DNA from: Ferriphaselus sp. R-1
Lineage (GTDB): Bacteria; Pseudomonadota; Gammaproteobacteria; Burkholderiales; Gallionellaceae
Assembly: GCF_000746095.1 (NCBI RefSeq)
Contig: NZ_JQKP01000004.1
Location: 124,001-188,000 of the forward strand
Direction of reading: 5' to 3'
Length of the DNA: 64,000 bases
The notes beneath the pieces are model-generated. The model had not been told where the DNA came from. It ran no database searches and worked only from the letters and a program-made list of their open reading frames with translations. Below are positions 40,246 to 41,614 of the stretch, piece after piece (the first letter of the stretch is position 1; each line of letters starts with the position of its first letter). A program made the position numbers and the translations under genes.

Positions 40246-40275
40246 TCGGCAACCCCAGCAGAATTTTGCTAGTAT
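40246..40275 (+). promoter_or_regulatory. Candidate promoter of the sigma-factor operon
   Basis: TCGGCA (40246-40251), 18 bp, TAGTAT (40270-40275). Start near 40282, 21 nt before the proposed CTG start. The -35 match is moderate. An autoregulated ECF promoter (-35 AAC type) was not obvious. Confidence 0.35.
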
Positions 40276-40302
40276 CGCCCTACCCTCACCGGAGCAACGC
40301 AA

Positions 40303-40866
40303 CTGGCCAGCCACGCAGAACTTTCAGACTTCCTCACGGCAACCGAGCGCCGCGCCTACAAGCACGCGCTGTATGCGGTGCGCGACGAGCATTGCGCGCT
40401 CGACATCGTGCAGGATGCGATGCTCAAGCTCGCCGAGAAATACAGCGACAAACCCGCCGCCGAGCTGCCGATGCTGTTCCACCGCATCCTGCAGAACACC
40501 ATCCACGACCATTTCCGCCGCCAGAAGGTGCGCGGCCTGTGGACCACCTTGCTGTCGGCACTATCGCCCCGGCACGACGATGAAGAGCACGACCCGCTGG
40601 AGACCCTGCTGGATGAGACCCACCAGCACCATGCCCCGGAAGCCACGCTGGAGCAAACGCAGACTCTGGCCACGATCGAAACCGCAATAAAAAACCTGCC
40701 AGCCCGTCAACGTGAAGCATTCCTGTTGCGTTACTGGGAAGACTTGGACATCGCGGAAACGGCAGCAGTCATGGGTTGTTCGGAAGGAAGTGTCAAAACC
40801 CATTGCTCGCGCGCCACCCATGCTCTCGCGGAGTCTCTCCACGCACAAGGAATCACGCTACCATGA
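40303..40866 (+). CDS. ECF-type RNA polymerase sigma factor with CTG start
   Basis: A 187-residue sigma-70 family protein. Region 2 is visible in ALDIVQDAMLKLAEKY and LFHRILQNTIHDHFRRQKVR; region 4 in LPARQREAFLLRYWEDLDIAETAAVMGCSEGSVKTHCSRA (helix-turn-helix). The frame is open from 40273 with no ATG, GTG or TTG before the conserved region 2 helix; the only canonical start, GTG 40378, would remove part of it. CTG 40303 has GGAG 8 nt upstream and gives a natural N-terminus. The next gene overlaps its stop by ATGA. Its anti-sigma factor may be the DUF3619 protein. Confidence 0.85.
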   Translation: MASHAELSDFLTATERRAYKHALYAVRDEHCALDIVQDAMLKLAEKYSDKPAAELPMLFHRILQNTIHDHFRRQKVRGLWTTLLSALSPRHDDEEHDPLETLLDETHQHHAPEATLEQTQTLATIETAIKNLPARQREAFLLRYWEDLDIAETAAVMGCSEGSVKTHCSRATHALAESLHAQGITLP

Positions 40867-41195
40867 ACAGCGATCTCGACACAGAATCGATCAGGAAGCT
40901 ACTCGACCGCTCGTTGTCACGACTCGGACCGACCACACTCTCGCGGCTGAGCGATGCGCGCCAGTACGCCCTGGCCCTACGCACGGAATCAGTGCGGGCA
41001 CCCGCACTGGCGGGGAGCTACACCCACGCTGCCCACACACACCACCGTATCCAGCAATGGGGGCTGATTCTGCTGCTGTTGCTGCTTGTGCTGGGGGGCA
41101 TCAGCTATTGGAGCCAGCCCACCGGGCCGAGTGACGATGAGGTTGACATCGCCATCCTGACCGACGACCTCCCGGTCGAGATGTACGCGGATTGA
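40863..41195 (+). CDS. DUF3619 single-pass membrane protein (possible anti-sigma factor)
   Basis: A 110-residue protein: a cytoplasmic N-terminal domain (1-60, ESIRKLLDRSLSRLGPTTLSRLSDARQYAL), one membrane helix (about 62-80, LILLLLLLVLGGISYW) and a 30-residue periplasmic acidic tail. That topology is common for anti-sigma factors, and the gene is coupled to the sigma factor by an ATGA overlap, but there is no ZAS/anti-sigma motif I can point to. The role is inference; the DUF3619 match is firm. Confidence 0.85.
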   Translation: MNSDLDTESIRKLLDRSLSRLGPTTLSRLSDARQYALALRTESVRAPALAGSYTHAAHTHHRIQQWGLILLLLLLVLGGISYWSQPTGPSDDEVDIAILTDDLPVEMYAD

Positions 41196-41614
41196 TGTCA
41201 GACAAGCTCCGACATCGGCTTGCCAGCGCGGCGCTGATCGCGTGCCTGATTCCGGACGCGCAAGCCGCGCTCACCGCCTGGAACAAGCTCTCCCCCTTGC
41301 AACGGGAAGCGCTGGCCCCACTGTCCAGCCAGTGGGACAAGCTGCCTGAACCCTATCAGGCGGACATGCTCAAGCTAACGAATCACTACGAGAGGCTCAC
41401 GCCAGAACAAAGGAACAGGCTGCACACTCGCCTGCTGGACTGGAGTCGGCTGACTCCCCAACAACGGGCGCAAGCCCGGGAGAAATACACCGCCTTCCAG
41501 AAGGTCCCGCCGGAGAAGCGGGAGATGGTGAAGAACATGGTGAAAGAGCAACAAGCCGCGCGCAACGCCGCGACAGACAGCAGCGCCCCATCGCCGGCTC
41601 CGGCGACAAAATAG
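41195..41614 (+). CDS. DUF3106 secreted protein
   Basis: A 139-residue protein with a signal peptide (SAALIACLIPDAQAA), then a helical domain of repeated short motifs (WNKLSPLQREALAPLSSQW, LTPEQRNRLHTRLLDWSRL, LTPQQRAQAREKYTAFQKV) of the DUF3106 family. The P-x-Q/E-R-x repeats resemble CpxP/Spy-like LTxxQ motifs of periplasmic stress proteins, which is a hint, not proof. It overlaps the DUF3619 stop by TGATG. A short Ala/Pro/Thr tail ends it. Confidence 0.85.
   Translation: MSDKLRHRLASAALIACLIPDAQAALTAWNKLSPLQREALAPLSSQWDKLPEPYQADMLKLTNHYERLTPEQRNRLHTRLLDWSRLTPQQRAQAREKYTAFQKVPPEKREMVKNMVKEQQAARNAATDSSAPSPAPATK

Follow-up and report, generated by a model that had tools for sequence, protein, structure and literature searches.

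A window of 64,000 nucleotides (nt) from Ferriphaselus sp. R-1, a member of the Gallionellaceae in the Burkholderiales (contig NZ_JQKP01000004.1, positions 124,001 to 188,000), contains a compact operon of three genes on the forward strand, which encode an extracytoplasmic function (ECF) sigma factor, a membrane protein of the DUF3619 family, and an exported protein of the DUF3106 family. The sigma protein matched the NF006550/PRK09047 profile with 267.9 bits (cut-off 173), and the Sigma70_r2 and r4_2 profiles for regions 2 and 4 were both above cut-off. Its two partners matched PF12279 with 58.4 bits (cut-off 22.2) and PF11304 with 86.2 bits (cut-off 24.3), respectively. The genes are joined by an ATGA and a TGATG overlap. 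Both overlaps had been described in an earlier reading of the same letters, here called the original prediction, as had the set of a sigma factor, a membrane protein, and an exported protein; the coordinates of the overlaps, the family matches, the one hydrophobic stretch, and the signal peptide all agree with that description. We consider it likely, on the basis of sequence comparisons, that the operon encodes a sigma switch, in which DUF3619 would hold the sigma factor, DUF3106 would signal, and genes for exported proteins would be transcribed.

The distribution of the genes was studied in 250 genomes from the Burkholderiales, the order of the window in the GTDB taxonomy, and in 274 genomes from the class, among which were two others of the window's order. 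In the order sample, DUF3619 was present in 181 genomes, DUF3106 in 184, and the sigma gene, with a score above cut-off, in 182. We named 80 Burkholderiales loci chosen by the sigma gene alone, and all three genes were adjacent in 76 of these. Two of the four exceptions (L075 and L093) end at a contig end, one (L116) has a gene for an RDD protein directly after the sigma gene, and one (L122) has neither partner. In a further 100 loci chosen likewise from roughly 150 listed rows, DUF3619 was identified in 99 and DUF3106 in 98, on the same strand and within the same stretch of 2.3 to 2.6 kb. The class sample contained 63 sigma genes above cut-off, 59 of which were followed on the same strand by DUF3106 at a distance of 392 to 820 nt, enough for a single intervening gene; of the four sigma genes not followed in this way, two (G205 and G229) were close to contig ends. 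The original prediction had named the frequent occurrence of DUF3619 and DUF3106 without the sigma gene as one outcome that would speak against it. These counts point in the other direction, and the sigma gene was absent at only 9 of 76 DUF3106 places in the class sample.

The DUF3619 profile recognized the middle protein in 23 of the 274 class genomes, including that of the window, and the matches were mostly N-terminal; the middle gene therefore diverges fastest. One of the 23 matches (L020) is probably false, as both the sigma gene and DUF3106 were absent there. The remaining 20 genomes outside the order all contained the sigma gene, one of them (L023) having no match to a DUF3619 profile that we built ourselves. 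Order and strand were identical in all 126 loci that held the three genes. In the set of 268 loci used for the start codon and promoter analyses (non-redundant at 98%, with 207 loci from the Burkholderiales and 61 from elsewhere in the class), the exact 4-base overlap was seen with ATG in 205 loci and with GTG in 30. The sigma, DUF3619, and DUF3106 genes are a class-wide module, with the same order in Beta- and Gammaproteobacteria. It was also noted that the sigma frame is split into two pieces in one locus (L013, genome G185).

Table 1. Features of the three-gene operon; positions are those of the 64,000-nt window.
Feature	Position	Strand	Basis
TTTGCTAGTAT, putative operon promoter element, sigma-70 type with extended -10	40265..40275	+	Read in the sequence; TTTGYTAnnAT recurs upstream of the sigma gene
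Shine-Dalgarno sequence GGAG, 8 nt ahead of the CTG	40291..40294	+	Read in the sequence
ECF sigma factor gene (NF006550/PRK09047), start CTG 40303-40305, stop TGA 40864-40866	40303..40866	+	Profile match; start column across loci
ATGA overlap of the sigma stop and the DUF3619 start	40863..40866	+	Read in the sequence; overlap kept across loci
DUF3619 (PF12279) gene, proposed to encode an anti-sigma factor bound to the membrane, start ATG 40863, stop TGA 41193-41195	40863..41195	+	Pfam match
DUF3619 cytoplasmic part, two expected helices	40863..41057	+	Alignments of 126 and of 54 sequences; helices predicted from the sequence pattern
DUF3619 single transmembrane segment, residues ~66-82	41058..41108	+	Hydropathy; limits by eye
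DUF3619 short conserved periplasmic tail (D..xL.DDLP...Y.D)	41112..41192	+	Alignment of 54 sequences
DUF3106 (PF11304) gene, start ATG 41195, encoding an all-helical exported protein with a proposed role as sensor or co-regulator in the periplasm	41195..41614	+	Pfam match; AlphaFold
DUF3106 signal peptide (MSDKLRHRLASAALIACLIPDAQA)	41195..41266	+	n/h/c pattern ending in AQA, by eye, no program

The sigma gene had been placed from position 40246 in the original prediction. We found that the conserved protein starts at the CTG codon at 40303, preceded by GGAG at 40291-40294, and that no ATG, GTG, or TTG codon occurs in frame before the GTG at 40378, which already lies within region 2. Gene finders limited to ATG, GTG, and TTG would start the gene at this GTG codon, with the loss of 25 codons of region 2 (40303-40377). 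In the start column of the 268 loci, CTG was present in 165, ATG in 38, TTG in 18, GTG in 7, and another codon in 40. The corresponding numbers were 140, 38, 15, 6, and 8 for the 207 Burkholderiales loci, while the 61 other class loci contained CTG in 25, TTG in 3, GTG in 1, and another codon in 32. Of the 40 loci with another codon, 27 had an ATG, GTG, or TTG nearby, at most 20 codons upstream or at most 4 codons downstream, and 13 had not.

CUG starts are very rare, since 2 of 61,358 AUG starts were found to have changed to CUG in 36 genome triplets, according to the accessible text of the study (PMC5622118), and a paucity of CTG starts has been reported for mycobacteria in the part available of another (PMC4633059). 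An ordinary leucine codon, with translation from an ATG, GTG, or TTG upstream or downstream, would fit this rarity, and 84 of the 165 CTG loci do have such a codon in frame upstream, with 4 more running to the edge of the stretch. We nevertheless regard this explanation as very unlikely. No ATG, GTG, or TTG occurred between the upstream stop codon and the CTG in 77 of the 165 loci, none occurred upstream or in the next 20 codons in 45, and 24 had a stop codon within 5 codons upstream. Furthermore, another leucine codon was present at the start column in only 3 of the 268 loci, whereas the leucine columns at +6 and +10 use all six codons, and CTG makes up 43% of the leucine codons inside these genes. 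The CTG alternates with ATG, TTG, and GTG in this column, with 13 changes between CTG and another NTG codon on a quick tree of 228 loci. Protein conservation starts at codon +1, with third bases free, and a peak of Shine-Dalgarno (SD) complementarity is located at -13 to -10. The neighboring genes served as controls: the start of ilvI was ATG in 117 of 141 loci, TTG in 4, GTG in 1, CTG in 1, and unresolved in 18, and the start of the LptF/LptG gene was CTG in 1 of 44 loci, or in 4 of the 44 when reading is restricted to the exact column.

The SD duplex reached -4 kcal/mol or better in 122 of the 165 CTG loci versus 12 of the 63 loci with ATG, TTG, or GTG. The median for the 38 ATG loci was +0.3 versus -2.4 in a control window, and that for the 7 GTG loci was -5.9. 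This contrast is striking, yet it includes only 5 independent pairs on supported branches. Among the named loci, those of the Burkholderiaceae and Methylophilaceae mostly had an AUG start without an SD sequence. We infer that translation of the sigma factor may be kept low, either by CUG in combination with a good SD sequence or by AUG without one.

The DUF3619 protein of the window has one hydrophobic stretch, and hydropathy profiles of 264 middle proteins gave one segment in 234, none in 26, and two or three in 4. The first segment starts at residue 64 in the median, with a 5% to 95% range of 47 to 83. A co-translated and mostly single-pass protein with its first hydrophobic segment at this position is as expected for a membrane anti-sigma factor. 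In the cytoplasmic part, L14, L29, and R33 were present in 125, 126, and 126 of 126 loci and A36 in 124. The same L14, L29, and R33 were invariant in the alignment of 54 DUF3619 members, as were four residues of the tail, D95, L99, P104, and D110. In line with the original prediction that DUF3619 carries no known anti-sigma motif, no known anti-sigma family (RseA_N, the zinc type, or others) was identified among the 25 of 35 Pfam families that were listed for the 54 members. A new anti-sigma family is therefore a fair reading. The length of DUF3619 and its two-helix pattern resemble those of class II anti-sigma factors such as CnrY, as a likeness only. Searches of solved structures with a single sequence or a profile gave no useful sequence match for DUF3619, and no PDB match to CnrY.

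Covariation was examined by mean-field direct coupling analysis of 261 sigma/DUF3619 pairs. The top pair was W145-L14, and the maximum, the second value, and the mean of ten all exceeded 60 of 60 local shuffles. Contacts of the CnrY kind, with helix 1 at region 4 and helix 2 at region 2, were not significant, as 7 of 60 shuffles reached their value. The maximum for the tail and DUF3106 was reached by 3 of 60 shuffles, and in a clustering score no pair stood clearly apart from its shuffles (for the tail and DUF3106, 5 of 49 reached the top-15 value). Two results lend an anti-sigma role no added support. The first is that a control pair that cannot touch, sigma and DUF3106, also exceeded its shuffles (24 shuffles), and because of this negative control the sigma-DUF3619 covariation was dropped as evidence for binding; the control pair of sigma and the tail exceeded its 21 shuffles too. 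The second is that in a fused AlphaFold model, helix 2 of DUF3619 had a predicted local distance difference test (pLDDT) score of about 80, while helix 1 had 57 or less and the interface was unreadable. This fused model was that of locus L124; DUF3619 entered it without relatives, because an alignment with unpaired rows had misplaced those of DUF3619. ECF sigma chains matched the sigma part of this model with Z-scores of up to 9.6.

Another explanation is that DUF3619 is not an anti-sigma factor but works with DUF3106 as its partner in the membrane and is co-translated with the sigma factor without controlling it; sigma activity would then be set only by the amount of the sigma factor, through a weak start and the promoter. 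The missing anti-sigma signature, the short cytoplasmic part, the unspecific covariation, and the weak kind of sigma start all agree with such a role. We find it unlikely, in view of the invariant L14, L29, and R33, which sit in the cytoplasmic part and not in the tail only. Moreover, the middle gene has been kept between the sigma gene and DUF3106 (as the room in the 59 class loci indicates) despite its fast divergence, which is usual for anti-sigma factors. A role of DUF3619 as an anti-sigma factor fits the arrangement.

The AlphaFold model of DUF3106 consists of five helices (pLDDT 87, predicted template modeling score 0.58), and the alignment contains conserved tryptophans and L-T-P-x-Q-R caps. 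CpxP, Spy, and ZraP of the LTXXQ family are small exported helical proteins with L-T-x-x-Q/R caps, and DUF3106 resembles them in size, export, helices, and caps. The kinship with CpxP and Spy that had been suggested in the original prediction was not borne out: the DUF3106 protein of the window scored 17.9 bits against LTXXQ (PF07813) and its mature part 19.2 bits, below the cut-off of 24.3. Likewise, the score against the CnrX-type Metal_resist family (PF13801) was 12.5 bits, below the cut-off of 29.2. Weak matches at an E-value of 0.5 or better were found in 12 of 57 DUF3106 members for LTXXQ (best 0.00085) and in 9 of 57 for Metal_resist (best 0.018). Unrelated helical families scored similarly, such as TetR_C_24 in 26 of the 57 members. 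A fold search gave no match to a solved fold (best Foldseek E-value 2.6; best Z-score 2.9 for 49 realigned chains, with CpxP, Spy, and CnrX not among these 49), and searches of solved structures with a single sequence or a profile gave no useful sequence match. As judged from these scores, DUF3106 does not appear to be a member of the CpxP/Spy family.

The element GTCAAC-N16-CGTT was located within 400 nt upstream of the sigma gene in 30 of the 61 class loci outside the Burkholderiales (shuffles: mean 0.02, maximum 1). As this is an ECF-type promoter in front of the sigma factor's own gene, self-control is probable in these genomes. A sigma-70 type element, TTTGYTAnnAT, was present in 67 of the 268 loci, including the window, in the 200 nt that precede the sigma start (shuffles 0.35). 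A GGAAC-type promoter was also considered, and was rejected with 8 loci versus 7.9 in shuffles. Neither the CUG start nor the promoter had been part of the original prediction.

We scanned 30 class genomes for GTCAACC-N14-GCGTT, 24 of which had been picked for an element already seen before the sigma gene and 6 of which had not. The pattern gave 69 matches, with all 30 genomes represented, versus 9 matches for the pattern read backwards, and a spacer one base longer gave 14 matches in 12 genomes. The sigma gene was the downstream gene of 23 of the 69 sites, two of these being about 485 nt away. Of the other 46 sites, 34 were read by eye, and 18 were located before a gene for an exported protein. 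Nine of the 18 targets were DUF4382-type lipoproteins (eight above the Pfam cut-off and one without a match), and in five genomes the DUF4382-type site was located 2.6 to 2.9 kb after the sigma factor's own site. The others were an L-T-E-E-Q protein without a Pfam match, an EF-hand protein, a DUF4136 protein, a 17-kDa-antigen lipoprotein, and histidine-rich, repeat, and other exported proteins. The histidine-rich exported and EF-hand targets (L393, L395, and L382) hint at metal binding. In the region 4.2 helix that reads the -35 element, the core MGCSEGSVKTH.SRA was the same in the class and the order, which makes a shared -35 element plausible.

In the window's own family, TGTCAAC-N16/17-CGTTA, with the spacer observed in the family, was sought in eight genomes, namely those of the own genus and of five further family members, most of which lack the secreted protein described below. 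Eight matches were obtained in five of the genomes, versus 3 for the pattern read backwards, and each of the eight was followed at 60 to 245 nt by a gene for an exported protein. Seven of these proteins are small cytochromes c, each above the Pfam cut-off, and one is a secreted protein rich in alanine, lysine, and proline (A/K/P). The window's own genome has two of the cytochrome c sites (G000:C1 near 297840 and G000:C2 near 386017), and for both a counterpart precedes the corresponding cytochrome gene in a second species of the genus. The secreted A/K/P-rich protein was found in 23 of 40 family genomes and not in the own genus; the query was of low complexity, and the weakest rows are doubtful. 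It was encoded at 26 places, 22 of which gave a start, and TGTCAAC-N15/17-CGTT was located at -82 to -94 in 21 of these 22 (shuffles 0.005), several of the genomes being close relatives. The palindrome GACAC-N-GTGTC, or GACC..GGTC in some, directly follows this promoter in 16 of the 22 by a simple pattern (L405-L430), often succeeded by AAACGTTTATyAACC, which suggests a 5'-end hairpin or a regulator site. The promoter targets, being exported proteins and in the window's family small cytochromes c, need not be stress genes, and the envelope-stress role proposed for the module in the original prediction does not follow from them.

Several observations weigh against the sigma factor reading these sites. 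Of the 34 class sites read by eye, 16 were inside frames or had no clear exported target, and class loci that lack the element had an identical region 4.2 core. An ECF-type promoter preceded the sigma gene in none of the 207 Burkholderiales loci, the window included. A scan of 21 genomes related to that of the window with the strict pattern gave 16 matches (in 11 genomes) versus 21 for the reversed control, and thus no genome-wide enrichment; the case in the Burkholderiales rests on where the sites lie. Twelve of these 16 sites were read by eye: seven were located before an exported protein, namely secreted A/K/P- or lysine-rich proteins (L354, L359, L360, and L362), a lipoprotein (L364), and cytochromes c (L357 and L358), and five were inside long frames. 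Two strict sites, L365 (own genome, C3) and L367 (G492, C1), were rejected, as they lie inside long open frames. The palindrome after the promoter of the secreted protein suggests another layer of control, and a single tie, motif identity, connects the sigma factor with the sites in the window's family.

Alternatively, a different ECF sigma factor might read the TGTCAAC-N-CGTTA sites of the window's family, and the module would have other targets here. The absent element in the 207 loci and the missing enrichment both agree with this, as does the presence of further ECF factors, the own genome having three NF006550 matches at an E-value of 0.001 or better, one of which is the sigma gene of the module. 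We judge another reader to be rather improbable, however, because the same element precedes the sigma gene itself in the 30 class loci, and because both groups share the region 4.2 core and have exported proteins as targets.

The upstream neighbor of the operon in the window is divergent and encodes a thiamine-pyrophosphate enzyme, which we took to be acetolactate synthase (ilvI); the downstream neighbor is a convergent LptF/LptG gene. By clustering of the 76 named loci (from L053-L132) with the complete module, a divergent ilvI-like cluster was found in 43, a convergent LptF/LptG cluster in 39, and a gene for an RDD protein on the same strand 3' of the operon in 33 (PF06271 in both that were scanned).

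The sigma switch that we favor would operate as follows. The sigma factor would be made in small amounts, its output being held low at translation by the conserved CUG or, in some lineages, by AUG without an SD sequence, and DUF3619 would be translated from the ATGA overlap. DUF3619 would then keep the sigma factor inactive at the inner membrane, its short two-helix N-terminus clamping the sigma factor in the manner of class II anti-sigma factors such as CnrY and NepR. The DUF3619 tail and the exported DUF3106, both periplasmic, might relay a signal, and the released sigma factor would read TGTCAAC-N15/17-CGTT(A) promoters before genes for exported proteins. In the window's family, these targets would be small c-type cytochromes and the small A/K/P-rich secreted protein; in other Gammaproteobacteria, they would be the DUF4382 lipoprotein and the sigma factor's own operon. 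Envelope stress is one option for the signal, and periplasmic redox or metal supply is another, because the targets include cytochromes. In its most far-reaching form, DUF3619 would be a new class II-like anti-sigma family, DUF3106 a new periplasmic sensor, the CUG an ancient and selected limit on sigma synthesis, and the supply of periplasmic, electron-carrying cytochromes c the controlled process in the window's Gallionellaceae-like family; this combination as a whole is possible, and we put it forward tentatively.

If the sigma switch is correct, it would give a role to two widespread families of unknown function, and the promoter yields a list of candidate target genes. The retention of a CUG start across families, and partly outside the order, is unusual and, if true, would represent a natural case of control by start codon strength. 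Gene finders that allow only ATG, GTG, and TTG will truncate or mis-start the sigma gene of this module.

The closest known counterpart is the CnrYXH system of Cupriavidus metallidurans, in which the class II anti-sigma factor CnrY, the periplasmic sensor CnrX, and the sigma factor CnrH occupy the same three compartments, and CnrX is a small all-helical protein. The accessible parts of two articles describe CnrY, like DUF3619, as having a short cytoplasmic anti-sigma part with two helices, which embrace the sigma factor, and CnrX, in line with our proposal for DUF3106, as a sensor with a periplasmic domain (PMC4598750, PMC7406223). The module is present in about three quarters of the sampled Burkholderiales, whereas cnr is located on plasmid pMOL28, as stated in the available text of PMC9045368. 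The two systems also differ in gene order, which is sigma-middle-periplasmic here and the reverse in cnrYXH, as judged from its name, in the DUF3619 profile without a PDB match to CnrY, in the DUF3106 score below the Metal_resist cut-off, and in their targets.

AlgU-MucA-MucB has the same make-up as RpoE-RseA-RseB, and RpoE and AlgU read promoters of the GGAACTT..TCTGA type, unlike the TGTCAAC..CGTT element seen here. Furthermore, an RseA/MucA-type domain was not among the Pfam matches listed for DUF3619. As in the present module, RpoE-RseA-RseB combines an ECF sigma factor, a single-pass membrane regulator, and a periplasmic partner in one operon with exported targets, according to the accessible part of PMC8103513. 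In the open literature that we searched, nothing was found on DUF3619, DUF3106, or PRK09047, on CUG initiation of a bacterial sigma factor, or on TGTCAACC together with an ECF sigma factor. The sigma group itself may be listed in the ECF reclassification, perhaps with DUF3619 as a putative regulator. Compared with these systems, the arrangement of sigma factor, anti-sigma factor, and periplasmic partner is of an already known kind, and what is new, with respect to the literature searched, is that DUF3619 and DUF3106 serve as its components, together with the promoter, its targets, and the conserved CUG start.

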